Below, piece after piece: positions 7,222-64,000 of a stretch of 64,000 nucleotides of DNA. Numbering within the stretch: the stretch's first letter is position 1; each line of letters starts with the position of its first letter. The notes under the pieces were generated by a model. That model worked only from the letters and a program-made list of their open reading frames with translations. It was not told the DNA's origin and did no database searches. The position numbers were made by a program, and so were the translations under genes. This DNA comes from Paramagnetospirillum marisnigri. Lineage in GTDB: Bacteria; Pseudomonadota; Alphaproteobacteria; Rhodospirillales; Magnetospirillaceae. Location: contig NZ_LWQT01000055.1 of NCBI RefSeq assembly GCF_001650715.1, forward strand, positions 62,001-126,000. Reading direction: 5' to 3'.

Positions 7222-8067
7222 TTATGGCTTTCCGGGCGCCCGGAACGGCGTGGTGACGTCCTCGTGCTCGAAAAAGTCCAATTGGGTCGGGCACATGCCG
7301 CAAATGGGCTCGGGGCCGAAATTCGCCTTCATGAAGGCGGCGTATTCGGGCATGGAGGCATGAACATCGAGGCCGCGATAGGCCAGATAGGGCGCCCAGG
7401 CCTCATGCCCCTCCAACCCGAATTTGCGCAGCACCATCTCCAGGAAGGCGATGGGCGGGCATTTCCATAACCGTCCCTGATACAGGCTCATGCAATAGCG
7501 GTTGGCGCAGACGGTCCAGGACTGGCCGGGGTTGCCCTCGGCGAAGGGGCGCATGCCTGGCCCCTCGCCCTGATAGGTCCGGTAGAAGGCGTAATAGCCC
7601 TCGCGCCGGATCAGATTGACGCCATGGCGTTTGGCCATTTCCTCCGCCTTGACCATGGCGGGCTCGAACTTGTCGAGATAGGGCTGGTCCGAGCGGGAAT
7701 GGCGGCTGATGGCGAGGATGGTGCCGGTTTCAGCCAGGGTGCTCCACAGATCGGGATGGCGGTCCAGCATCAGCCCATTGGTGACGACACCACGCTCGAT
7801 GTCCGGCCACAGCTCGGCGACCAGCCAGATATAGTCGCACAGATCGGGATTCAGGGTGGGCTCGCCCCCCAGGATGTAGAAGCTGTTGGGGATCACCTTG
7901 CGGTGCAGGGCGTCCAGCCAGGGCGCGGCCGTGGCCAGCGGCACCACCCCTTTCAGGGTATAGTTGGAATAATGGCTGCAGAAACGGCAATGCAGATTGC
8001 AGACATGGGCGATGTCCATCTCGACGCCGTGGGGCAGCGATATTCTTTGGCTGTCGGCGCTATCCAT
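7222..8067 (-). CDS. Radical SAM protein with C-terminal cysteine cluster, function unknown
   Basis: 281 residues. Cys23, Cys27 and Cys30 in CNLHCRFC are the CxxxCxxC ligands of the radical SAM [4Fe-4S] cluster; ILGGEPTLNPDL is the GGE motif that binds SAM. Two further Cys groups (CANRYCMS...LWKCPP and ICGMCPTQ, roughly residues 185-265) suggest a second, SPASM-like cluster. Such enzymes modify peptides or sugars by radical chemistry. The substrate is not deducible. It is divergent from the DUF4910-AAC(3)-ligase operon across an intergenic palindrome, and similar radical SAM proteins occur in surface-glycan clusters, so a role in that cassette is my inference. The ATG at 8067 is the only plausible start. 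Confidence 0.75.
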   Translation of the reverse strand: MDSADSQRISLPHGVEMDIAHVCNLHCRFCSHYSNYTLKGVVPLATAAPWLDALHRKVIPNSFYILGGEPTLNPDLCDYIWLVAELWPDIERGVVTNGLMLDRHPDLWSTLAETGTILAISRHSRSDQPYLDKFEPAMVKAEEMAKRHGVNLIRREGYYAFYRTYQGEGPGMRPFAEGNPGQSWTVCANRYCMSLYQGRLWKCPPIAFLEMVLRKFGLEGHEAWAPYLAYRGLDVHASMPEYAAFMKANFGPEPICGMCPTQLDFFEHEDVTTPFRAPGKP

Positions 8068-8111
8068 GCTCGGCCCTTGCTCCGGGAAGGCGTGCCCAAC
8101 CTACCCTAGGG

Positions 8112-8130
8112 TGCGTTGGGCGCCAACGCA
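8112..8130. promoter_or_regulatory. Perfect 19-bp palindrome in a divergent intergenic region (candidate operator)
   Basis: TGCGTTGG (8112-8119), GCG, CCAACGCA (8123-8130) lies between the divergent starts of the radical SAM gene (8067) and the DUF4910 operon (8247). There is no T-run on either side, so it is not a terminator. A shared operator is the simplest reading. Confidence 0.45.
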
Positions 8131-8246
8131 ATCTTAACACCCTTGACCCCACCATGGGGATGGCACCGGGCACGAGGCACCATGAACGGCGACAACGAAT
8201 TTCCCAGGCGATGGATCGGGCCGGATTTCTCCGGCTGGAGGCGTCC

Positions 8247-9584
8247 ATGACCGGACTGCCCAGCCCGGACGAGGTCGAAGGCTGGCTGCGGCGGCTGTGG
8301 CCGATCATGCGCAGCATCACCGGCGCCGGTCAGCGCCTGACCCACGACATGCTGGCCGAACTGGTGCCCTTCGACCACTGGGACATTCCGTCGGGAACCC
8401 GGATTCTCGACTGGGAGGTGCCCCGGGAATGGGTGTTCCGCCGGGCCACTCTGGAGGACCCCGCCGGACGGCGCATCCTGGACGCCGCCGAGCATACCCT
8501 GCATCTGGTCAACTACTCCCAGCCCTTCCAGGGCAGCCTCGATCTGGCGGAGTTGCAGCCCCATCTCCACTCGCTGCCCGACCGGCCCTGGGCCATTCCC
8601 TATGTGACCAGCTACTACGCCCCCCATTGGGGTTTCTGCCTGTCCGACGAGATGCGCGCCGGGCTGGCCGAGGGACGCTATGGCGTGACCATCGATACCG
8701 AGATGATCGACGGCGTGATGCGAGTGTCCGACTGCGTCCTGCCCCCCAGCCCGGGAGAGGAGGATGGCGGCGAGGTGCTGTTCTCGTCCTATAGCTGCCA
8801 TCCCTCCATGGCCAATAACGAGTTGTCGGGACCGCTGGTGCTGGCCTTCCTCTACCGTGCCCTGGCGGCGCTGCCCCGGCGGCGGATGACCTACCGCTTC
8901 GTGCTGGGGCCGGAGAATGTCGGCTCCATCGCCTATCTGTCGCGCCATGGCGAGCATCTGCGGCAGCGGCTGCGGGCGGGCTATGTCCTGACCAATATCG
9001 GCGATCGCCAGCCGCTCAGCCTGAAGAAATCACAGCGCGGCGACACCCTGGCCGAGCGGGCGGCGATCCAGGCCTTCACCGACCGGGACATCCCCCACCG
9101 GCTGCTGGACTTCGACCCGCGCGGCGCCGACGAGCGCAATTACTGCTCGCCCGGCTACAACTTCCCGGTCTGTGCCCTGATGCGCAGCTATTTCCAGCAA
9201 AATCCCGCCTATCACACCTCCGACGACAATCTGGATTTCGTGACCGCCGAATCCATCATCGCGGCGGTGGAGGCCTGTGTGGACATCTGCCGGGTGATCG
9301 AGGCCAACCGGATCTGGCGCAACACCGCCCCCTTCGGCGAGCCGTTCTTCTCGCGCCACGACCTGGCGCCGACCCTGTCGACTCCGGGGGTCTCCGCCGA
9401 TCGCCAGTTGCTGGCGCGCCGCTGGCTGCTGAACCAGTGCGATGGCAGCCGCGACATCCTCGCCATCGCCCAACGCTGCCACATGCCCGTGGCCCTGCTG
9501 GCGGAACAGGCCGCCATCCTGGCCCAGGCTGGGCTCCTTGCTCCCGGATCGGACCATGCCGTTTCCCACCACCTCCGCGGCTGA
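8247..9584 (+). CDS. DUF4910/DUF2172-type aminopeptidase-like hydrolase
   Basis: 445 residues. The N-terminal RLWPIMRSITGAGQRLT is the hallmark of DUF4910 proteins. SSYSCHPSMANNELSGP is the expected metal-site region of an M28-like fold, and YCSPGYNFPVCALMRS with YHTSDDNLDFV is the late conserved block. The last 70 residues (LARRWLLNQCDGSRDILAIAQ) form an added helix-turn-helix-like tail. These proteins resemble zinc aminopeptidases and are often found in polysaccharide clusters, but substrates are unknown to me. The ATG at 8247 follows TGGAGG; 8211 is an alternative. The stop overlaps the next gene by 29 bp, giving an operon with the acyltransferase and ligase. Confidence 0.75.
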   Translation: MTGLPSPDEVEGWLRRLWPIMRSITGAGQRLTHDMLAELVPFDHWDIPSGTRILDWEVPREWVFRRATLEDPAGRRILDAAEHTLHLVNYSQPFQGSLDLAELQPHLHSLPDRPWAIPYVTSYYAPHWGFCLSDEMRAGLAEGRYGVTIDTEMIDGVMRVSDCVLPPSPGEEDGGEVLFSSYSCHPSMANNELSGPLVLAFLYRALAALPRRRMTYRFVLGPENVGSIAYLSRHGEHLRQRLRAGYVLTNIGDRQPLSLKKSQRGDTLAERAAIQAFTDRDIPHRLLDFDPRGADERNYCSPGYNFPVCALMRSYFQQNPAYHTSDDNLDFVTAESIIAAVEACVDICRVIEANRIWRNTAPFGEPFFSRHDLAPTLSTPGVSADRQLLARRWLLNQCDGSRDILAIAQRCHMPVALLAEQAAILAQAGLLAPGSDHAVSHHLRG

Positions 9585-10311
9585 GCTGCGCCACCATCTC
9601 GACCGCCTGGGCATCGAACCCGGCGACCGGCTGGCGGTGCACAGCCGCCTGCTGTCGTTCGGCCGGGTGGAAGGCGGCCCCGCCCTGGTCTGCCAGGTGC
9701 TGCGCGAGCGCATCGGCGAATCCGGAACCCTGATCGTGCCGGCCTATACCTTCGATCCCGTGCCGCCCTTCGACCCCGCCCACCGGCCGGGCGAGGGGGT
9801 GGGGGCGCTGTCCGACCATGTGCGCCTGCTGCCCGGCGCCATCCGCAGCCTGTGCCCCATCCACAGCCATGCCGGAATCGGCCCCGAGGCGGTGCTGCTG
9901 CGCCAGTCCGACCCGGAATGCTCGCTGGGGCCCGGATCGGATTTCGACCTGATGCGGCGCCACGGCTTCAAGGTGCTGCTGCTGGGCTGCGGCTTCAGCG
10001 AGGGCTGCGCCTATATCCATCATGTGGAGGCGGTGGCCGGGGTGCCCTATCGCCACTGGCTGACCCTGGCGCGGCAGCGGGTCGAGCCCGATGGCGGTCT
10101 GCGGCCGGTGATCTGTCGCTATTACGCCCGTTCGCGCACCGACCTCACCCCGGATTTCGAGCCGGTGCGACGGCGGCTGGATGCGGCGGGGCTGGTGGCC
10201 TCGGCGCCCTGCCCCCTGGGGGAGAGCCATGCCTGCCGGATCGAGGACCTCCATGCCGTCACCCTCGCCCTGCTGCGCGACGACCCCATGGCCCTGATGG
10301 GCGGAGGCTGA
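9556..10311 (+). CDS. AAC(3)-family N-acyltransferase (antibiotic NAT fold)
   Basis: 251 residues of the aminoglycoside N(3)-acetyltransferase family. Marks are LAVHSRLLSFGRVEGG near the N-terminus, TLIVPAYTFDP, a CPIHSHAGIGP segment, SLGPGSDFDLMRRHGFKVLLLGCGF and a following CAYIHHVE. The family transfers acetyl or acyl groups from CoA to amines; members in glycan clusters N-acylate amino sugars, and nothing here points to drug resistance specifically. The ATG at 9556 lies inside the DUF4910 gene (29-bp overlap); longer readings are shadow. The next gene begins one base after its stop, so coupling with the adenylation enzyme is likely. Confidence 0.8.
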   Translation: MPFPTTSAAELRHHLDRLGIEPGDRLAVHSRLLSFGRVEGGPALVCQVLRERIGESGTLIVPAYTFDPVPPFDPAHRPGEGVGALSDHVRLLPGAIRSLCPIHSHAGIGPEAVLLRQSDPECSLGPGSDFDLMRRHGFKVLLLGCGFSEGCAYIHHVEAVAGVPYRHWLTLARQRVEPDGGLRPVICRYYARSRTDLTPDFEPVRRRLDAAGLVASAPCPLGESHACRIEDLHAVTLALLRDDPMALMGGG

Positions 10312-10312
10312 G

Positions 10313-11788
10313 ATGGGCGGCGATGTGATCGAGCGCATCCTGGCCTGGGCCGCCACCGATCCCACCCTTCCCGCCGTGGTCGAGGGCGGCGTCGCCGTCT
10401 CCTATGGCGAGCTGGTGGCGCGCGCCTGGGGGCTGGCCGGGGAACTGGCCCGCTTCGGGGCCCATCCCAAGGTGGCGGTGCTGCTGCCCCAGGGCGCCGA
10501 TGCCTATGCCGCCATGATCGCCAGCCTGCTGGCGGGCGGCACCTACCTGCCGTGCAATACCGCCTCGGTGGCGGCCAAGATCGAGGCGGTGATCGGGCGC
10601 TTTGGCCCCGACGTGCTGGTGGCCGGGCCGGAGCAGACCGCCGGTCTGGCGCTGCCCCCCGGCCTGCCGGTGCTGCACAAGGTCCCGCCCCGGGATGGAA
10701 TGCCCCAGATACGCGCGCCCCACCGGCTGGCCTATGTGATCTTCACCTCGGGCTCCACCGGCATGCCCAAGGGGGTGATGATCCCCCGCGCCGCGCTGAA
10801 CCATTACGTCGACTGGGCCCTGGCGGCCATGCGCCCCGGCCCTGGCGACCGCTGGTCGCAGCACCCCAATATCAGTTTCGATCTCAGCGTCCTCGACATC
10901 TTCGGCGCCCTGTGTTCGGGGGCGGCCCTCTATCCGTTGCGCAGCGAGAGCGAGCGCATGCTGCCCGCCCGCTTCATCGCCGCCCACCGCCTGACCATCT
11001 GGAACTCGGTTCCCAGCGTCGTCGACATGATGTCCAAGGCCCGCGAGCTGACGCCCGAGCGGCTGGCCTCGCTGCGGCTGCTTACCTTTTGCGGCGAAGC
11101 CCTGCACACCGCCCAGGTCGAGGCCCTGTTCCAGGCGGCGCCGCAAGCGGTGATCCACAACACCTACGGCCCCACCGAATGCACCGTGTCCTGCACCGAG
11201 CTGCGCCTGACCGCCGAGCGCTTCCGCCATGCCTGCGACGACACCGTCGCCCTGGGCACGGCCATCGACGGCATGCGGCTGCATCTTCTCGACGGCGAGC
11301 AGGGGACCGAACTGGCCATCAGCGGGCCGCAACTGGCCGATGGCTATTGGGAGGACGAGGCCCGCACCCGCGACGCTTTCATCACCCTGGAGGAAGAAGG
11401 CGAGGCGATTCGCGCCTATCGCACCGGCGACATGGTGCGAATGCGCGATGGACAGTTGTTCTTTGCCCGCCGCAAGGACACCCAGGTCAAGATTCGCGGC
11501 TATCGCCTGGAACTGGACGAGGTCAATTCCGCCCTGCGCGGCCTGGGCTTCGCCGAGGCGGCAACGGTGCTGGTGGAGGGCCGGCTGCACGCCTTCGTCG
11601 GCGCCCCTCCCCCCCTGGACGAGAGCAAGCTGCGCCATGAGTTGGGGCGCAGGCTCGACCCCCACGCGGTTCCCGAGCGGATTCACCGCCTCGACCAGTT
11701 GCCGCGCAACGCCAATGACAAGATCGACCTGGGCGCCTTGGCCGGTCTGGTGACTTTAGCCGAAGGTGGCGTCGATCACCGGTCCTAG
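10313..11788 (+). CDS. Stand-alone adenylation enzyme (DltA/NRPS A-domain-like amino acid ligase)
   Basis: 491 residues of the ANL (AMP-forming) superfamily. The ATP loop is YVIFTSGSTGMPKGVM, the A5 motif NTYGPTECTVSC, the A8 hinge region YRTGDMVRMRDGQLFFARRKD followed by QVKIRGYRLELDEV, and the A10 lysine lies in LPRNANDKIDLG. In A4 (SFDLSVLDIFG), Asp190 corresponds to the residue that binds the alpha-amino group in amino-acid-activating domains, so an amino acid substrate is likely. There is no carrier (PCP/ACP) domain in the protein and none encoded beside it, as with DltA, which loads a separate carrier. It is the last gene of the three-gene operon and overlaps the convergent maf gene by 33 bp. 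Confidence 0.82.
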   Translation: MGGDVIERILAWAATDPTLPAVVEGGVAVSYGELVARAWGLAGELARFGAHPKVAVLLPQGADAYAAMIASLLAGGTYLPCNTASVAAKIEAVIGRFGPDVLVAGPEQTAGLALPPGLPVLHKVPPRDGMPQIRAPHRLAYVIFTSGSTGMPKGVMIPRAALNHYVDWALAAMRPGPGDRWSQHPNISFDLSVLDIFGALCSGAALYPLRSESERMLPARFIAAHRLTIWNSVPSVVDMMSKARELTPERLASLRLLTFCGEALHTAQVEALFQAAPQAVIHNTYGPTECTVSCTELRLTAERFRHACDDTVALGTAIDGMRLHLLDGEQGTELAISGPQLADGYWEDEARTRDAFITLEEEGEAIRAYRTGDMVRMRDGQLFFARRKDTQVKIRGYRLELDEVNSALRGLGFAEAATVLVEGRLHAFVGAPPPLDESKLRHELGRRLDPHAVPERIHRLDQLPRNANDKIDLGALAGLVTLAEGGVDHRS

Positions 11789-13690
11789 CCGGGCAAGCCC
11801 CTCGTCCAGCACCGCGATCAGGGCGGCCAGCCCGCCGCCGTCATCGGCCTGATCCAGGGTCGAGGCATAATGGAAGGCACCCGAGGTCAAGGCCCGGGAA
11901 TGGCCGATGATGATGCCATAGGCGGCGCCGCCATCTTCCTTCAGCGCGCCCAGGCGCCGGTTGACCTGATCGCAGAAGGCGACGATCACCCCCTGGGGAG
12001 CGCCATGGGGATCGAGCCGGTGCAGGATGTCGCGGCAGTCGGCGGCAAAGCCGCGCAGGCTGGCCCCCAGCCGGGCGAAATCATCGGGCCGGGTCAAGGG
12101 CTCGCCCACCCGGGCCAGCTCGGCCAGGGCGGCTTCCAGGTCCACCGCCACGGAACAGGGCGGATCGGCCAGGGCGATGGCTTCCGCCGCCAGCGGCGCC
12201 GCGCCGGGAATGCGGCAGCCATCGCTGCAATTCATGACGCGGGCATCACCGATCTGGGCGATGGCCTGCCCGACCACGGTCTGGCCCAGATTGAGCAGCC
12301 AGCCGGTATTGACCGCACCGCCGAAATTGCCCGGCAGAGTGTAGTCGAACTGATAGGGGGTATAGGTCGCCAGTTCGGCCTCGTCCTCATAGGTGAAATA
12401 GACCGAGTGGCGGGAATGATGGTGATTGGGGTCCCGGGCACCGAAATCGAGGCCGAACAGATAGATTTCCTTGAAGCCCAGCGACAGGGCGCAATACACC
12501 GCCGTATTGCCCGATGTGGGCTCGGCCAGGGGGGTATGGTCGGCGCCCTGGCCATAGAAGACGGTGGAACTGAGGCCGCTGCGGAAGAAATAGACCGTCT
12601 TGTCGAAGCAGGGCGAGATGCGCGGATCGACCGATGGCGTGGCGTAGAGGGTGATGCCGGACAGGTCGTATTTGGCGGCCAGGCTTTCGGCGACGTCGCC
12701 CAGGCCGGGGGAGTTCTCCAACTCGCAGTGGATATCCGGGCGGATGCCGTTTTCCAGGCAGGGCTTCAGCCCGCTGCTGGCGGTGATCACCACCACCTGG
12801 TCGCGACAGCGCTTGATGTCGTCCAGATCCTTGTCCAGCGAGGGGCCGGCGCCGATCACGAAGGCCGGTCGCCGCCGCCTTGACGGCACCCTGGCCCGCT
12901 GCAGCCAATAGCCGCTGCGGGCGAAATTGGCGGTGGCGTTGCGGAACACCAGCAGCTGATCCTCGACCCATCCCGGCAGCATGGTGAGATCCTTGGCCTT
13001 GAAGAACAGCTTCTGGATCAGGTCGGTGTATTCCGGGGTCTGGTAGTGGGCATACAGATAGGAGCCGTCCAGCAGAGCGTAGTCGTCGCTGTTGATGATG
13101 GAAACGATCTGGCCGTAAAGATTCGGCCCGCGCACGAAATGCAGGCTGCGGTCGCTGCGGGCCAGCGACTGGGCCAGTCCGGCCCAATCCACCACATGGA
13201 GGCTGTGATTGATGAAATCGTCATGGGTCTCGATCACGATCAGCGCCTTGAAGCGCAATCGCTCGGCCAGCATCCTGACGTGATGGCCCAGCCCCAGGCC
13301 GAACACCACCAGGAAACCCGCGAAGGGGGCCTGGGTCTCGGCCTTGGGGAAGGACGCCAGTCGGTCGCGCAGACTGCGATACAGCCAGTTGACCTCGGCC
13401 CCGTCCTCGAAGACCTCCTCGGGCTTGCAAAAGCAGCGTGACGGGGTTTCGAGGAAACTGGCGACCTGCCGTTCCACCGCCGCCTGGGCATCGCCGGGAT
13501 AAAGCAGATTGCCGCCACCGATATCGACATTCAGATTGCCCGCCCCGTCGATCACCAGCCGGGTCGCGGCCGATGACAGCGGCGGCAGCCCGCTCAGATG
13601 GCCATGGCGCGACAATTGCCGCAGATTGCTCTTGTACCGATCGGCATTCTGATAGGGTCTCATGGGCTCGGCTTGGCTCGGCTGGGTCAT
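11756..13690 (-). CDS. Maf-type motility-associated glycosyltransferase (DUF115 / MAF_flag10)
   Basis: 644 residues. The central domain carries RRPAFVIGAGPSLDKDLDDI and IRPDIHCELEN, the signature of the MptE-like/MAF_flag10 family. Maf proteins transfer nonulosonic acids (pseudaminic or legionaminic type) to flagellin in the cytoplasm before export; to my knowledge a Maf from Magnetospirillum magneticum has a solved structure. An N-terminal domain of about 200 residues (with LLYPGDAQAAVERQVASFLETPSR) and a C-terminal helical region fit that architecture. Starts at 13690 (MTQPSQAE) or 13663 (MRPYQNAD) are both possible. It overlaps the adenylation gene tail-to-tail and lies 145 bp downstream of guaA. 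No flagellin or nonulosonate synthase gene is in the window. Confidence 0.85.
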   Translation of the reverse strand: MTQPSQAEPMRPYQNADRYKSNLRQLSRHGHLSGLPPLSSAATRLVIDGAGNLNVDIGGGNLLYPGDAQAAVERQVASFLETPSRCFCKPEEVFEDGAEVNWLYRSLRDRLASFPKAETQAPFAGFLVVFGLGLGHHVRMLAERLRFKALIVIETHDDFINHSLHVVDWAGLAQSLARSDRSLHFVRGPNLYGQIVSIINSDDYALLDGSYLYAHYQTPEYTDLIQKLFFKAKDLTMLPGWVEDQLLVFRNATANFARSGYWLQRARVPSRRRRPAFVIGAGPSLDKDLDDIKRCRDQVVVITASSGLKPCLENGIRPDIHCELENSPGLGDVAESLAAKYDLSGITLYATPSVDPRISPCFDKTVYFFRSGLSSTVFYGQGADHTPLAEPTSGNTAVYCALSLGFKEIYLFGLDFGARDPNHHHSRHSVYFTYEDEAELATYTPYQFDYTLPGNFGGAVNTGWLLNLGQTVVGQAIAQIGDARVMNCSDGCRIPGAAPLAAEAIALADPPCSVAVDLEAALAELARVGEPLTRPDDFARLGASLRGFAADCRDILHRLDPHGAPQGVIVAFCDQVNRRLGALKEDGGAAYGIIIGHSRALTSGAFHYASTLDQADDGGGLAALIAVLDEGLARLGPVIDATFG

Positions 13691-13834
13691 GGGGTGTCCG
13701 GCGCCCGCGCCCGCGTTCGCCCGGCCGCGATGGTAGGGGCCAACCCGTTAACGCCCCGTTTCCATCACCAGCGAGGTCATATGCCCGCGATGACGTCCTC
13801 TGCAAAGGGACACCTGGGGCCAACCCCTTGCAAC

Positions 13835-15389
<1,555 letters not shown>

Positions 15390-59565: not shown

Positions 59566-60594
59566 TCACGGGGCCGCAAGAACCCGCCGCAGCCGCTCCA
59601 GCCCGCCCGAATCGGAAGGCAGGCCGAAGCGCAGCCGGTCCGGCCGGTCCGCGAAGGCCCGGGTCAGGATTCCCGCCCGCCCCAGCCGGTCATACAGCCG
59701 CGCCGCCTCGTCATGGGGCAAGCGGTTGGGGCGGGCCAGCACGAACAGGTCGGTGCCGCCCAGCACCTCCCAGCCGCCCGCGGTCAGCACCTGGCGCAGT
59801 TCGGCGGTGGCTTGGGCCAGACGCGGTCGGGTGGCGGCGGCCCAGCCCTCATCGGCTAGGGCGACGGTACCCACCGTCAGGGCAGGCCCCGAAACCGCCC
59901 AAGGCCCCATCATGGCCCGCAACCGCTCGACCAGGACGGGCTCGGCCAGGGCGAAACCGAGGCGCAGCCCGGCGAGGCCATGGAACTTGCCGAAGGATTT
60001 CAGCACCACCAGACCGGGGCCAACCCGCCCGGCCAGGGACAGATCGGGGCGGAGATCGCCGAAGGCTTCGTCCACCACCAGCAACCCACCTTGTCGGGCC
60101 AGCCGCGCCGCCAGGGCGGACAGAATTTCAGGCGACGTGATCCGGCCATCGGGATTGTTGGGATTGACCACCACCACCGCCCCGACTTCGTCCACCGAGG
60201 ACAAATCCTCCACATCCGACACCTGGTGCCCCACCGCCGCCCAGGCACGGCCATGTTCGCCATAGGTGGGCGAGACGATGGCGACACGGCCCGGAGCCAG
60301 CAGACGGGGCACCGCCTGGATCAGCGGCTGGCTGCCCGCCGCCGTCACCACCAGGGCCGCATCGGCGACACCCCAGCAGCGGGCGGCGGCCCGGCGCAAG
60401 GCCTCTTCCTCGGCGGCACCGGGCAGGCGGTGCCAGGCCTCGGCCGGAATGTGGGGCAAGGGATAAGGCCAGGGATTGATGCCGGTGGAGAGATCAAGCC
60501 AGCCCTCGGCCGGGCGTCCCCACCGCGCCGCCGCCCCCGCCAGATCGCCGCCATGAAGGGGAAGCGGGGCCAGGGGTAGCTGGGTCGGGCTCAC
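59566..60594 (-). CDS. cobC: L-threonine-O-3-phosphate decarboxylase (CobC/CobD-type, cobalamin synthesis)
   Basis: 342 residues of PLP aminotransferase fold I, starting from GTG 60594 that overlaps the preceding stop (GTGA). LHGGDLAGAAARWGRPAEGWLDLSTGINPWPYP, VVVNPNNPDGR and the PLP lysine in VLKSFGKFHGLAGLRLGF are CobC marks that separate it from histidinol-phosphate aminotransferases. It supplies (R)-1-amino-2-propanol phosphate for the nucleotide loop of cobalamin. No other cobalamin gene is in the window. Longer starts at 60600 are possible. Confidence 0.87.
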   Translation of the reverse strand: MSPTQLPLAPLPLHGGDLAGAAARWGRPAEGWLDLSTGINPWPYPLPHIPAEAWHRLPGAAEEEALRRAAARCWGVADAALVVTAAGSQPLIQAVPRLLAPGRVAIVSPTYGEHGRAWAAVGHQVSDVEDLSSVDEVGAVVVVNPNNPDGRITSPEILSALAARLARQGGLLVVDEAFGDLRPDLSLAGRVGPGLVVLKSFGKFHGLAGLRLGFALAEPVLVERLRAMMGPWAVSGPALTVGTVALADEGWAAATRPRLAQATAELRQVLTAGGWEVLGGTDLFVLARPNRLPHDEAARLYDRLGRAGILTRAFADRPDRLRFGLPSDSGGLERLRRVLAAP

Positions 60595-61697
60595 CGCCAA
60601 TCCGCCAGCACCGCCTCGGCACCGCGCTCCACCAGCGGGCGGCGGTCGCGCACCCGCTGACCATCCATCAGCATGGGCAGGGCCACGTCGATGATGCCGT
60701 CAGCGGCCCGCCTGACGAAGCCGCGCGCCCGGTGATGGGGATGGTCCGCCACCTCGGAGGGGTCCAGCACCGGCTCGAAGGTGCAATCGGCGGGTTCCAG
60801 CAGCGTGGTCCACTCGGCCAGGGTCTTTGAGGCGAACAGGGCCTCCAACTCGGCGATCATGGCGGTCTGGGGCAGGGGATCGGCCTGACGCGCGATCCAA
60901 TCGGGCCGCTCCACGGCGGTGCAGAACGACCGCCAGAACTTCTCCTCCAGCGCCGCGATGGCGGCGAAGCGGCCGTCCCTGGTGCGATAGATGCGGTAAT
61001 GGGCGGCGCCGCCATTGATCAGGTCGGCCTCGCGTCCCGGCGTGCCCCAGCGTTCCGCCATGGTCAGCACCCCACCCATCCAGGACAGCGCCGCCTCGGA
61101 CAGGCTGACATCGATGACGGCGCCCTTGCCGGTGGTGGCGCGGCGCAACAGGGCGGCCAGGATGGCATTGACCGCCAGCATGGCCCCGGCATGGTCGGCC
61201 AGGGGGGGAAAGGTCATCACCGGCCGCTCGGCGGGACCGCTGGCCGCCAGCATTCCCGCCGCCGCCAGATAGGTGACATCATGGCCCGCCCGCTCGGCGA
61301 AGGGGCCGGTGCCGCCATAGCCCGACAGGCGGCAGGTGATCAGGCGAGGGTTCAAGCCGACCAGCCGCTCGTCGCCGAAGCCCAGCCGGGCCAGCACGCC
61401 GGGACGGAACCCGTCCAGCAGCACATCGGCCTTTTCCAGCAAGCCCGCGAACGCCGCCTTGCCCCCGGCGCTTTTCAGATCCAGCGCCACCACCGTCTTG
61501 TTGCGGTTGGCCAGCTTGTAGAAAGCGGTGGTGCCATCGGCATCCACCGGCCCCATCACCCGCATGGGGTCGCCCAGCGGACCTTCCACCTTGACCACCT
61601 CGGCGCCCAGATCCGAGAGCCACATGGTAGCCAGCGGGCCGGGGATATACATGGACAGGTCGAGGACGCGAAGGCCGGAAAGACAGTCGGACAGCAT
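60591..61697 (-). CDS. CaiB/BaiF-family (class III) CoA-transferase
   Basis: 368 residues. The family blocks are LRVLDLSMYIPGPLATMWLSDLGAEVVKVE, NRNKTVVALDLKSAGGKAAF, then the catalytic Asp in ERAGHDVTYLA, and ISLSEAAL-type (VIDVSLSEAALSW). It transfers CoA between carboxylic acids; the substrates cannot be inferred. AMACR-like racemase is an alternative subfamily. Its stop overlaps the cobC start, though the two have no obvious biochemical link. Confidence 0.88.
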   Translation of the reverse strand: MLSDCLSGLRVLDLSMYIPGPLATMWLSDLGAEVVKVEGPLGDPMRVMGPVDADGTTAFYKLANRNKTVVALDLKSAGGKAAFAGLLEKADVLLDGFRPGVLARLGFGDERLVGLNPRLITCRLSGYGGTGPFAERAGHDVTYLAAAGMLAASGPAERPVMTFPPLADHAGAMLAVNAILAALLRRATTGKGAVIDVSLSEAALSWMGGVLTMAERWGTPGREADLINGGAAHYRIYRTRDGRFAAIAALEEKFWRSFCTAVERPDWIARQADPLPQTAMIAELEALFASKTLAEWTTLLEPADCTFEPVLDPSEVADHPHHRARGFVRRAADGIIDVALPMLMDGQRVRDRRPLVERGAEAVLADWR

Positions 61698-61766
61698 GGC
61701 GGGCTCCGGAACAGGGTCACCCCAGGGAAGCAGCCCCGGCGCCCATGGTCAACACCCTCCTGAACG

Positions 61767-61796
61767 GAAAAGGGCCCCCTCGGAGGAGGGGGCCCT
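61767..61796 (-). terminator. Intrinsic terminator downstream of the gene for the OmpA-like porin
   Basis: AGGGCCCCCT (61771-61780) pairs perfectly with AGGGGGCCCT (61787-61796), loop CGGAGG, followed on the minus strand by TTTT (61770-61767). It ends the transcript of the ompA-like gene. Confidence 0.85.
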
Positions 61797-61822
61797 GATC
61801 GGACGCTGATGATCGGCCGGAA

Positions 61823-62848
61823 TTACGGCATCACGATCTCGACGCGACGGTTCTGCGGCTCGCGCACGCCATCGGGGGTGGCGACCATGGGCGAGGACTT
61901 GCCCTTGGCGACGGTGATGATCTGGTTGGCGGGCACGCCCTGGGCGACCAACTGGGCCTTCACGGCATCGGCACGCTTCTGCGACAGGGCCTGATTGTAC
62001 TTGGCGCTGCCGGCCAGATCGGTGTGACCGGTCAGGTCGATACGGGCGGCACCCGACGACTTGACGGCGGAGGCGGCCTGCTGGATCACCCGGTTGGCCT
62101 CGGGGGTGATGGCGGACTTGTCGAAGTCGAAGAACACGATGAAGTTCTTGGCCACCTGCGGCACGGCCTTGGGGGCCGGGGCCGGAGCCGCCACCGGGAC
62201 GGGGGCCGGAGCGGGAGCCGCCACCGGAGCGGGCTTGTTGAACTTGTAGGTGAAGCCCAGCAGCACCGCGTGATCGCGATACTCGCTGTCCAGTGTGGTG
62301 TTGTTGGCGTTGGCCTTGGTCTCGTAGTCCAGGGTCGCGAAGTAGCGATACTGGGCCTTCAGCTCGAGATTCTTGTTGATGTCGTAGGCGACACCGGCAA
62401 AGCCCTGATAGGCGAACTGCCAGTCGTCGCCGTTATAGACGCTGGTGTTGTTCTGCTTGACGGTTCCAGCATCGACCATGGCCGCGCCGATACCGGCGCC
62501 GACGAAGGGATGCCAGGACGACTGCGGCATGAAGTAGTAGGCGCCGTTGACCATGGTGGCCAGCGCAGTGGTGTCACCGCTGCCGGTGGCGCCGCCGACC
62601 TTGTCGATGCCGCTGGAGCGGTAGCTGAGTTCGCCTTCCAGCCGCCACTGGCCGAAGGCATAGCCCACCTGGCCCTGGACCAGCCAGCCGATATCGGACT
62701 CGCTCTTGTAGCCGAGGCCGGTGCCGCTGTTCTTGGAGTCTTGCAGCCACTGGGCGCCGGCATCGGCACCCACATACCACTCGGCCTGGGCCAGAGCGGG
62801 CACGGCGGCGATCACCGCGGCGGCGAGGAGGGTCTTGAAGCTGCGCAT
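61823..62848 (-). CDS. OmpA-like outer membrane protein
   Basis: 341 residues. The signal peptide is MRSFKTLLAAAVIAAVPALAQA. The next 190 residues form an eight-stranded-type beta barrel (EWYVGADAGAQWLQD... to LGFTYKFNKP), a Pro/Ala linker (about 210-235) follows, and the C-terminal OmpA domain (FFDFDKSAITPEANRVIQQAA...LTGHTDLAGSAKYNQALSQKRADAV) binds peptidoglycan. The start at 62848 is set by the signal and an AAGGA box. It has its own promoter and terminator. Confidence 0.93.
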   Translation of the reverse strand: MRSFKTLLAAAVIAAVPALAQAEWYVGADAGAQWLQDSKNSGTGLGYKSESDIGWLVQGQVGYAFGQWRLEGELSYRSSGIDKVGGATGSGDTTALATMVNGAYYFMPQSSWHPFVGAGIGAAMVDAGTVKQNNTSVYNGDDWQFAYQGFAGVAYDINKNLELKAQYRYFATLDYETKANANNTTLDSEYRDHAVLLGFTYKFNKPAPVAAPAPAPVPVAAPAPAPKAVPQVAKNFIVFFDFDKSAITPEANRVIQQAASAVKSSGAARIDLTGHTDLAGSAKYNQALSQKRADAVKAQLVAQGVPANQIITVAKGKSSPMVATPDGVREPQNRRVEIVMP

Positions 62849-62897
62849 GGTGCGAAATCCTTTGAGTCTTGTCATAAGACGAAATTCTGCTTTGTCC

Positions 62898-62926
62898 TAT
62901 GTAGACCGTGACCTTGGCTGCGGCAA
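62898..62926 (-). promoter_or_regulatory. Predicted promoter for the ompA-like gene
   Basis: On the minus strand TTGCCG (62926-62921), a 17-bp spacer and TACATA (62903-62898), giving a leader of about 45 nt before the ATG. Confidence 0.55.
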
Positions 62927-62991
62927 GCAGGCGTAAGTCCTGGGCAGCGCTATTCCCGGCGGGTGTTGCCGCAATGCAACACTGTGACCGG

Positions 62992-63792
62992 TCAATCCGG
63001 GGTTGCGGCGGCGGCGGCGGTATCCAAGGCGGCGCGGTCGGCCTGATCCTTGAGGCGGCGGAACGAGCGCACGGAAAACGGGATCGACGCCATATAGGCC
63101 GAGCCCACCAGCGACAGGGTCAGCCAGGGTTCGGTCACCATGAAGGCGGCGGCCAGCCCCACCACCAGCAAGATGGGCAGCACCCATTTATGGGGAATGC
63201 GCACCTTTTTGAACGAGAAGGTGGGGATCTTGCTGACCATCATGAACGACACGCCCAGCAGGAACAGCGCCACCAGCCAGGGCCGGTCGAAGAAGCCGTC
63301 ACCGAACTGGATGGTGAGGATCAGCGGCAGCAGCACCATGCCCGCCCCGGCGGGAGCGGGCACGCCGGTGAAGAAGTTATAGGCATAGGGCGGCAGGTCG
63401 GGTTCGCCGATCATGGTGTTGAAGCGGGCCAGACGCAGGGCGCAGCAGACCGAGAACAGCAGTACCAGCGCCCAGCCGAAGCCACCCGCGCCGCGCATGG
63501 CCCAGAAATACAGCACCATGGCCGGGGCGACACCGAAGCTGACGAAATCCGACAGGGAATCCAGCTCGGCGCCGAATTTGGAGGTGCCCTGCAACAGTCG
63601 GGCGATACGCCCGTCGAGCCCGTCCAGCACGGCGGCCAGCATGGTGGCCAATACCGCTTCCTTCCACATGTCGTGCATGGCGAAGCGGATGGAGGTCAGG
63701 CCGGCGCACAACGCCAGCAGGGTCAGGATATTGGGAATCAGCTTGTTGATGGACAAGCCGGGAATGCGTGGCGACCGCTTGGGGCGGAACAT
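62992..63792 (-). CDS. pssA: CDP-diacylglycerol-serine O-phosphatidyltransferase
   Basis: 266 residues, starting [39 protein letters not shown]. It is an integral inner-membrane CDP-alcohol phosphotransferase; the catalytic motif D-G-x2-A-R-x8-G-x3-D-x3-D is present as DGLDGRIARLLQGTSKFGAELDSLSD (last Asp at the expected spacing). It makes phosphatidylserine, which Psd decarboxylates to phosphatidylethanolamine. The ATG overlaps the psd stop (TGATG), so synthesis of both enzymes is coupled. Confidence 0.95.
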   Translation of the reverse strand: MFRPKRSPRIPGLSINKLIPNILTLLALCAGLTSIRFAMHDMWKEAVLATMLAAVLDGLDGRIARLLQGTSKFGAELDSLSDFVSFGVAPAMVLYFWAMRGAGGFGWALVLLFSVCCALRLARFNTMIGEPDLPPYAYNFFTGVPAPAGAGMVLLPLILTIQFGDGFFDRPWLVALFLLGVSFMMVSKIPTFSFKKVRIPHKWVLPILLVVGLAAAFMVTEPWLTLSLVGSAYMASIPFSVRSFRRLKDQADRAALDTAAAAATPD

Positions 63793-64000
63793 CAGCGCAC
63801 CTCGCCCGGGCGCGCCGCCTGGGGGCCGTCGAGATCGGCCAGAACCGTCTCGGCCGCCAGCGTGGTCTGGCCCAGCGCCACCAGCGGCTCGACGCCCTCG
63901 GGCAAATAGACATCGACGCGCGAGCCGAAGCGGATCAGGCCGAAGCGCTCGCCCGCCCTCACCTGCTGCCCGTCCTTGAGATCGCATTTGATGCGTCGCG
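63792..64000 (-). CDS. psd: Phosphatidylserine decarboxylase (partial, C-terminal part only)
   Basis: The last 69 residues are visible; the N-terminus lies beyond the right edge. [23 protein letters not shown] contains the FGS autocleavage site, where the Ser becomes the pyruvoyl group of the alpha chain, as in the short bacterial Psd. It ends QAARPGEVR. It is the first known member of the psd-pssA operon in the window. Confidence 0.9.

Follow-up and report, generated by a model that had tools for sequence, protein, structure and literature searches.

What do five neighbouring genes of Paramagnetospirillum marisnigri do, and do they act as one cassette for decorating a glycan, as the original prediction held? 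The window analysed is the whole 64,000-nucleotide stretch of DNA in which they lie. Their positions and families had been predicted correctly; all five reading frames are open, and Pfam agrees for each:

7222 to 8067, minus strand: radical SAM gene (Pfam Radical_SAM, E 1.5e-12), a divergent neighbour that is probably outside the cassette
8094 to 8130, no strand: inverted repeats between the two divergent genes, a putative regulatory site
8247 to 9584, plus strand: DUF4910/DUF2172/HTH_47 metallopeptidase-like protein of 445 aa (Pfam; PDB 3k9t; start set by orthologues)
9556 to 10311, plus strand: AAC(3)-fold (Antibiotic_NAT) acyltransferase (Pfam, E 6e-35; catalytic HxxE)
10313 to 11788, plus strand: stand-alone adenylation enzyme with a putative DltA-type D-alanine pocket (Pfam AMP-binding, E 1e-55; alignment to 3dhv)
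11756 to 13690, minus strand: Maf-type flagellin glycosyltransferase (Pfam Maf_flag10_N, E 1e-38, plus MptE-like; PDB 5mu5)

The predicted translational linkage was also borne out: with the starts preferred by orthologue alignment (ATG 8247 for DUF4910, ATG 9556 for AAC(3)), the DUF4910 and AAC(3)-type genes overlap by 29 bp and a 1-bp gap separates the latter from the ligase gene, which in turn overlaps Maf tail-to-tail by 33 bp. The palindrome described between the radical SAM and DUF4910 genes is present as inverted repeats at 8094-8121 (14-nt arms, 86%) and 8112-8130 (8-nt arms, perfect). Third-position GC of the five genes is ordinary for the window (GC3 0.82-0.88, against 0.81-0.89 in 12 nearby genes); recent import of the three-gene block was rejected on composition, both GC and GC3 being ordinary.

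As a set, the five genes are not conserved. What is conserved is a core of the DUF4910, AAC(3)-type acyltransferase and adenylation-enzyme genes (8247-11788), which in three relatives from the genus (L018, L019, L020) stand in the row LbH–DUF4910–AAC3–ligase–ACP, where LbH is a hexapeptide acyltransferase and ACP a dedicated acyl carrier protein; the three core genes are 60-79% identical to these three sets of orthologues. Maf flanks the row in two of the three relatives, lying immediately 5' of it in L020 and 3' of it in L018. Among the 12 genomes of the family with DUF4910, 10 have an AAC(3)-type gene within 10 kb of it, and the DUF4910 loci include an AMP-ligase in 11, Maf in 7 and flagellin in 2. 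The expected co-occurrence of all five families held for the core three, which recur in relatives, and failed for the five as a unit. Our main reading, given a probability of roughly 0.5, is that these three genes are the displaced core of a flagellin-directed pathway exchanging N-acyl groups on a nonulosonic acid, with its ACP, its LbH and another Maf located on a separate contig, C66. The ACP type occurs in 5/55 genomes of the family, all five of which carry DUF4910 and a ligase scoring above 800 bits (association by Fisher test, in which the genomes are not independent). G010 bears on the main reading both ways: its close ligase and AAC(3)-type gene share a locus with NeuB-like and CMP-transferase-like genes, which favours it, but DUF4910 and this ACP are lacking from the genome, which counts against it. 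Also against it, G037 has LbH and Maf but no core.

The radical SAM gene had been predicted to belong to the cassette, and this we judged unlikely. Its homologues, found in 3/55 genomes, do not track the core: three other copies lie away from it, beside purA/hisZ/serA (a context that for one copy is conserved with G037) or with FTR1 on one side and a glycosyltransferase-like gene on the other, and two genomes with the complete row, G038 and G047, have no homologue. A five-gene pathway in which the radical SAM enzyme is a working step would account for the adjacency, for the presence of LbH in all three genomes with a homologue (Fisher p 4e-4) and of the core in two of them (p 0.01), and for radical SAM genes of different families at L023 and L024; given the absences and the copies elsewhere, we regard it as highly improbable, and the gene is probably outside the set.

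Nor is the cassette complete in the window: its carrier protein is missing there and is encoded on another contig. Six carrier proteins, four of them close and two divergent, gave only chance-level tblastn matches in the window, and three LbH queries found none. In the same genome, C66 carries Maf–LbH–ACP (L035:6788-9733), all open; its LbH and ACP genes lie 10 bp apart at the point where L020 carries the three core genes, so that the C66 order equals the L020 row minus exactly the DUF4910–AAC3–ligase block. A second ACP of the genome (contig C10) lies in another ligase/reductase cluster and matches at E 9e-7, against 1.4e-32 for the C66 protein.

From the gene content, order, split, motifs and co-occurrence, all directly observed, we infer a route whose every reaction, acyl group and target, and the joint working of the two loci, are to be taken as proposals. 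The DUF4910 protein would remove an N-acyl (acetyl) group from the nonulosonic acid or its CMP-form; the adenylation enzyme would activate a small amino acid (D-alanine being the likeliest) and load it onto the phosphopantetheine of the dedicated ACP; the AAC(3)-fold enzyme would move the aminoacyl group off ACP and onto the amine freed on the sugar; and a Maf enzyme would attach the modified sugar to flagellin.

For the first step, the DUF4910 protein clearly belongs to its profile family (PF16254, 251.4 bits against a gathering cut-off of 26.6, E 7e-75) and has the three-domain layout, with DUF2172 at 106.7 against 27 bits and HTH_47 at 44.4 against 27.1 bits; it matches PDB 3k9t at E 1.4e-76. 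The zinc ligands described for that structure are His189, Asp195 and His324, conserved in 82 homologues (PMC4000134). Both histidines are kept here, but the Asp195 position is Asn, and the next residue is Glu where 3k9t has Asn, giving NNE in place of NDN. By profile the protein remains a DUF4910 member despite its differing zinc site. Because the substitution is common to 11/11 close members, this protein included, the hydrolase may have changed or lost its activity, which counts against the main reading. The M28 catalytic Asp and Glu are reported as replaced by Ser191 and Pro225 in the DUF4910 family (PMC4000134), and the window's protein likewise has Ser and Pro rather than the two-zinc M28 pair. 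We propose a sugar N-deacylase or N-acyl exchanger, a role in line with the deprotecting step of the original prediction and backed by gene context. A deacylation step is suggested by analogy with Campylobacter jejuni Cj1295, without which flagellar pseudaminic acid lacks one of its acyl substitutions.

The acyltransferase scores 121.3 bits against the Antibiotic_NAT cut-off of 25 and keeps the catalytic His and Glu of the HxxE motif. Its score against the NCBIfam AAC_3 equivalog is 88.9 bits, where 270 are required, and on this cut-off a resistance gene was rejected. An Antibiotic_NAT+DUF4910 fusion at another locus (L024) counts for the main reading; against it, the motif Thr upstream, present in 7/7 aligned relatives, is Ala here. 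This loss, the split itself and the failure of a scan restricted to sigma-70-like promoters to find one are what a decaying remnant, left after break-up of the gene row, might look like. Such decay is nonetheless quite improbable, as the three core frames are intact at 60-79% identity with their overlaps and catalytic His/Glu kept, and the C66 ACP, LbH and Maf frames are open.

The identity of the acyl group was approached through the adenylation enzyme, aligned to B. cereus DltA (3dhv), with the roles of pocket residues taken from PMC8972799 and PMC4176424. D197, L198, C269, T297 and V301 are identical and M201 is replaced by Leu, so that five of six positions of the D-alanine pocket agree; the same five occur in 6/6 close ligases, and not in a paralogue within the window's own genome. 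These residues would make D-alanine the likeliest substrate. The prediction that such an enzyme, with an N-acyltransferase, caps a sugar amine is backed by gene context. Over its whole length the ligase has its best PDB match in LgrA, a glycine module, and not in DltA, and this counts against the main reading; the score against DltA TIGR01734 is 249.4 bits, far under the cut-off of 559.85. None of the six ligases that are more distant but also sit at DUF4910 loci (L021-L025, L027) has the pocket pattern; these are of other types, and D-alanine is therefore not a general feature. Outside the family, 0/384 other genomes of the class sample had a match to the ligase reaching E 1e-100, with at most four candidates scored per genome. 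It is possible, if doubtful, that the substrate of the ligase is glycine, a hydroxy acid or some other small acid, which would yield another N-acyl sugar, as the LgrA match, the low DltA score, the distant ligases and the glyceric acid added by the best-known relative system (PMC3068675) would suggest; the five pocket positions, Cys269 included, shared by all close ligases argue for D-alanine. Taken furthest, the D-alanine reading becomes a Dlt-like D-alanylation of a glycoprotein sugar, which we offer only tentatively: a DltA-type enzyme and carrier would supply an AAC(3)-fold enzyme acting as aminoacyl-ACP:amino-sugar transferase, and DUF4910 would act as an amide exchanger whose zinc site has shifted by one residue (from NDN to NNE). 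If this is true, the flagellum would carry positively charged D-alanyl groups.

On the acceptor side, Maf scores 133.1 against 23.5 bits for Maf_flag10_N and 97.2 against 34.6 for MptE-like, matches PDB 5mu5 at E 4e-60, and is the probable partner of the cassette. One flagellin query found no flagellin gene in the window, a point against the main reading; in its favour, the genome has NeuB-family genes and flagellin with Maf, and the nonulosonic-acid and flagellin target originally proposed is backed by gene context. Maf was seen beside guaA in this genome only; among genus relatives, 15 had the 1.5-kb flanks needed and none of them showed Maf 3' of guaA (in a sixteenth, L075, a contig end cuts the flank). 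The locus is therefore variable, and this is no proof of an island. The same chemistry might serve a sugar destined for LPS, capsule or another surface glycan, with Maf a chance neighbour. Das et al. 2014 favoured surface polysaccharide (PMC4000134), and such a destination would suit the confined Maf-guaA adjacency and a named Alphaproteobacteria record (L030), where DUF4910, an AAC3-domain gene and an SDR gene lie beside O-antigen-ligase-like and sugar-biosynthesis genes and neither Maf nor an AMP-ligase was recognised. We hold it unlikely, given Maf and flagellin at 7/12 and 2/12 of the family's DUF4910 loci and the action of Cj1295 on flagellin (PMC3068675).

If the flagellin pathway is correct, acyl groups could be swapped on flagellar sugars after sugar assembly, and AAC(3)-fold enzymes, whose main known role is in antibiotic resistance, would be tied to native sugar acylation. 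The compact DUF4910/transferase/ligase/ACP set makes the DUF4910 reaction testable in vitro. As the split shows, such a pathway can have its parts far apart in the genome, where annotation based only on gene neighbourhood would not find them.

The locus had been called undescribed, which is true in part. The association of DUF4910 with Maf, an N-acetyltransferase and an ACP was published by Das et al. 2014 with the structure (PMC4000134), and the Cj1295 flagellin phenotype by Hitchen et al. 2010 (PMC3068675), the reaction itself still being a hypothesis in those reports; the DltA-like module, the split and the shifted zinc-ligand motif are new here. Among the matches listed from the open-licence literature, none described a route to flagellar nonulosonic acids that is DltA-like or uses aminoacyl groups.

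The nearest known system is that of C. jejuni, where the DUF2172-family protein Cj1295 is required for a glyceroyl acyl group on N5 of flagellar Pse, its authors proposing acetamido-group removal, and Maf lies in the locus (PMC3068675); Cj1295 tracks Pse genes across 16,130 C. jejuni genomes (PMC13130089). Unlike here, the acyl group is 2,3-di-O-methylglyceroyl, the passages on the system name no DltA-type ligase, and the N-acetyltransferase Cj1296/7 was out of frame, yet modification occurred (PMC3068675). The CA_C2195 neighbourhood of Clostridium acetobutylicum (PDB 3k9t), for which fusions were reported and sugar transacylation or deacylation proposed, likewise joins DUF4910 with Maf, an aminosugar N-acetyltransferase and an ACP (here on C66), but in Table 2 of that paper (PMC4000134) the ligase is of the ATP-grasp type and an adenylation enzyme does not appear, and the Clostridium zinc motif is NDN where ours is NNE. 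Flagellar glycosylation islands of Aeromonas (PMC7874193) and Enterobacteriaceae (PMC4875605) resemble the present set in their carrier-protein and acyl-activation genes; the word "aminopeptidase" is absent from the main texts of both. AAC(3) aminoglycoside acetyltransferases and FrbF share the Antibiotic_NAT fold and catalytic His/Glu with the enzyme described here, which falls far under the AAC(3) equivalog cut-off, would take its acyl group from aminoacyl-ACP and on present evidence is no resistance gene. Finally, DltA/DltC teichoic-acid D-alanylation also pairs a stand-alone adenylation enzyme, with a D-Ala pocket, with a separate carrier protein, but the enzyme here misses the NCBIfam DltA cut-off, and its proposed acceptor is a sugar amine reached through an AAC(3)-fold enzyme, not by the DltB/DltD route.

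The five reading frames that the original prediction had joined into one glycan-decoration pathway were all open and intact, and Pfam returned the families as named:

7222-8067, minus strand, radical SAM protein
8247-9584, plus strand, DUF4910 protein
9556-10311, plus strand, AAC(3)-type acyltransferase (AAC3)
10313-11788, plus strand, adenylation enzyme (ligase)
11756-13690, minus strand, Maf

Orthologue alignment favoured starts at 8247 (DUF4910) and 9556 (AAC3), so the predicted 29-bp overlap and 1-bp gap are correct, as is the 33-bp overlap between the 3' ends of ligase and Maf. Inverted repeats are present, as described, between the divergent genes; a scan for sigma-70-like promoters found none, and base composition did not mark the block as foreign. 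The grouping of the five genes is wrong; the feature itself is real and in part described before. Its core, DUF4910-AAC3-ligase (8247-11788), is predicted to be a nonulosonic-acid N-acyl exchange module. Predicted reading frames on the 3' side of guaA (13690-13836) varied in length and strand among genus relatives (L066-L081), marking a variable site that is possibly an insertion hot spot.

DUF4910 relatives, counted at E 1e-10, occurred in 12 of 55 genomes sampled from the family, and 12 loci were compared: the window and 10-19 kb around the main DUF4910 copy in 11 genomes. An AMP-ligase was recognised by BLAST at all of these except L028 (11/12), with Pfam confirmation for the window, L021, L023 and L024. 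An AAC(3)-type gene lay within 10 kb of DUF4910 at 10 of the 12, the exceptions being G043 and G028, whose contig stops at DUF4910; the AAC(3) profile, A4, derives from sequences of the window and of seven compared loci, towards which its scores are biased. Association of DUF4910 with AAC3 over the 55 genomes gave a Fisher p of 3e-5, which kinship makes too small. Maf was present at 7/12 loci and flagellin was recognised at two (L023, L026). Carrier proteins were clear in L018, L019, L020 and L026, and also in L021, about 8 kb from DUF4910; Pfam gave no match for the small carrier-like reading frames of L022, L023 and L024. The three closest relatives (L018, L019, L020) share the gene order hexapeptide acyltransferase (LbH)-DUF4910-AAC3-ligase-acyl carrier protein (ACP), with Maf 5' of this row in L020 and 3' of it in L018.

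Two loci that hold a separate full DUF4910 gene also encode 608-aa proteins (L024:3906-5732 and L025:1656-3482, 89% identical); Pfam, run on the L024 protein, revealed a fusion of Antibiotic_NAT with a partial DUF4910 domain. The HxxE pattern was not found in the L024 fusion, suggesting that it may be degenerate. Divergent DUF4910-like proteins with 26-30% identity to that of the window (L018:5759-7042, L029:8336-9607 and L029:10549-11478) adjoin methyltransferase-like genes and are a possible sister subfamily. Orthologues of the genes at 59566-63998, which look by eye like housekeeping genes and lie about 48 kb from the DUF4910 locus in the window, adjoin that locus in L021 and partly in L026 (60-89% identity).

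That the radical SAM enzyme is a working step of the pathway, as originally proposed, is very unlikely. Homologues were found in 3/55 genomes and lie elsewhere: the paralogue in the window's own genome (L047:9860-10696, contig C98; 64% identical, adjoining serA) and the G037 orthologue are flanked by a chemoreceptor gene and serA, with hisZ and purA nearby, and the G048 homologue has an FTR1 permease on one side and a glycosyltransferase-like gene on the other. G038 and G047 carry the full row without such a homologue. All three genomes with the gene do have LbH (p 4e-4) and two have the core (p 0.01), values too small because the genomes are related; this overlap leaves room for a loose link, and we treat the gene as a neighbour rather than a part of the cassette.

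Neither ACP nor LbH was found in the 64-kb window. The cassette-type ACP of the same genome lies on contig C66 (E 1.4e-32; next-best match, E 9e-7), in a Maf-LbH-ACP group (L035:6788-9733) whose Maf is 53% identical to that of the window and whose LbH and ACP are 66-71% and 52-59% identical, respectively, to those of L018, L019 and L020. LbH and ACP are 10 bp apart on C66, at the place where L020 has DUF4910-AAC3-ligase, and each of the six L020 row genes is found at one or other of the two loci. Cassette-type ACP occurred in 5/55 genomes, always together with DUF4910 and a cassette ligase above 800 bits; Fisher tests gave p 2e-6 for ligase with ACP, 2e-4 for DUF4910 with ACP and 7e-5 for LbH with ACP, all too small because the genomes are related. 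LbH was likewise present in five of the 55, four with the core and one (G037) with Maf-LbH and no core, so its role may be tied to Maf and not to acyl exchange. Beyond the five genomes with this ACP, G010 encodes a 645-bit ligase, together with an AAC(3)-type gene (L051:2839-9990), among genes resembling NeuB and the CMP-transferase of C66; no DUF4910 or cassette-type ACP was found in it.

When aligned with the solved DUF4910 structure 3k9t (CA_C2195, Clostridium acetobutylicum), the window protein keeps both zinc histidines, Asp195 is replaced by Asn, and the following Asn by Glu. The acidic residue seems to have moved by one position, and Glu may be used instead. The motif HPSMANNELS is present in 11/11 close members, the window included; L028, a locus with two NeuB-like genes, has HPSLANDNLS, and the divergent copies L018_07 and L029_07 retain Asp. 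The AAC3 His/Glu dyad, with catalytic roles described in PMC8956665, is present in the window copy, which alone among eight aligned has Ala for an upstream Thr. Given the altered zinc motif of DUF4910 and the loss of this Thr in AAC3, activity may be modified or reduced.

The window ligase keeps five of the six DltA positions for D-alanine (PMC8972799, PMC4176424), and the same five are found in 6/6 close ligases (window, L018, L019, L020, L026, L051), Met201 being Leu or Ile. The pattern was not seen in the six less closely related ligases of DUF4910 loci L021-L025 and L027, which suggests, from pocket residues, that the acyl group differs from locus to locus. D-alanine is predicted rather than assigned: the window ligase scores under the DltA cut-off, and over its whole length it matches LgrA best in the PDB. 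A second cluster in the same genome (L037:9065-11606, contig C10) contains an ACP, a 3-ketoacyl-ACP-reductase-like protein and an amino-acid-type adenylation enzyme; the latter is 35% identical to the window ligase, has a different pocket and lacks the five-residue pattern.

We infer, with a probability of about 0.85, that the cassette acts on a surface amino sugar. The target is probably a flagellin nonulosonic acid: NeuB-family and Maf genes number four each in the genome, contig C43 carries a nonulosonic-acid cluster with a Maf 50% identical to that of the window, and C77 has a flagellin near another Maf. An aminoacyl-ACP is the probable donor, D-alanine a tentative choice of acyl group, and DUF4910 slightly favoured as a deacylase or exchanger. 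At L030, an Alphaproteobacteria metagenome record, DUF4910 (HPGMIHDELA, with both acids), an AAC3-domain protein and an SDR protein adjoin O-antigen-like genes, and neither Maf nor AMP-ligase was recognised; the target can thus differ.

Among the closest described systems is that of Cj1295, a DUF2172 protein (PMC6321876) of Campylobacter jejuni. Hitchen et al. (PMC3068675) report that its loss removes di-O-methylglyceroyl pseudaminic acid from flagellin, leaving Pse5Ac7Ac or the acetamidino form, and propose that it cleaves the C5 acetamido group, making way for another acyl; Das et al. (PMC4000134) argue for amino-sugar transacylation, with deacylation less likely. The transferase step there is not performed by the N-acetyltransferase Cj1296/7, which was out of frame while modification occurred (PMC3068675). 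Together, the window cassette and the C66 genes would supply candidates for the adenylation enzyme, carrier and transferase missing from this acyl-replacement model. Such genes cluster in relatives, and the L024 protein fuses one of them to a DUF4910 domain; the DltA-like ligase and the split over two loci are new.
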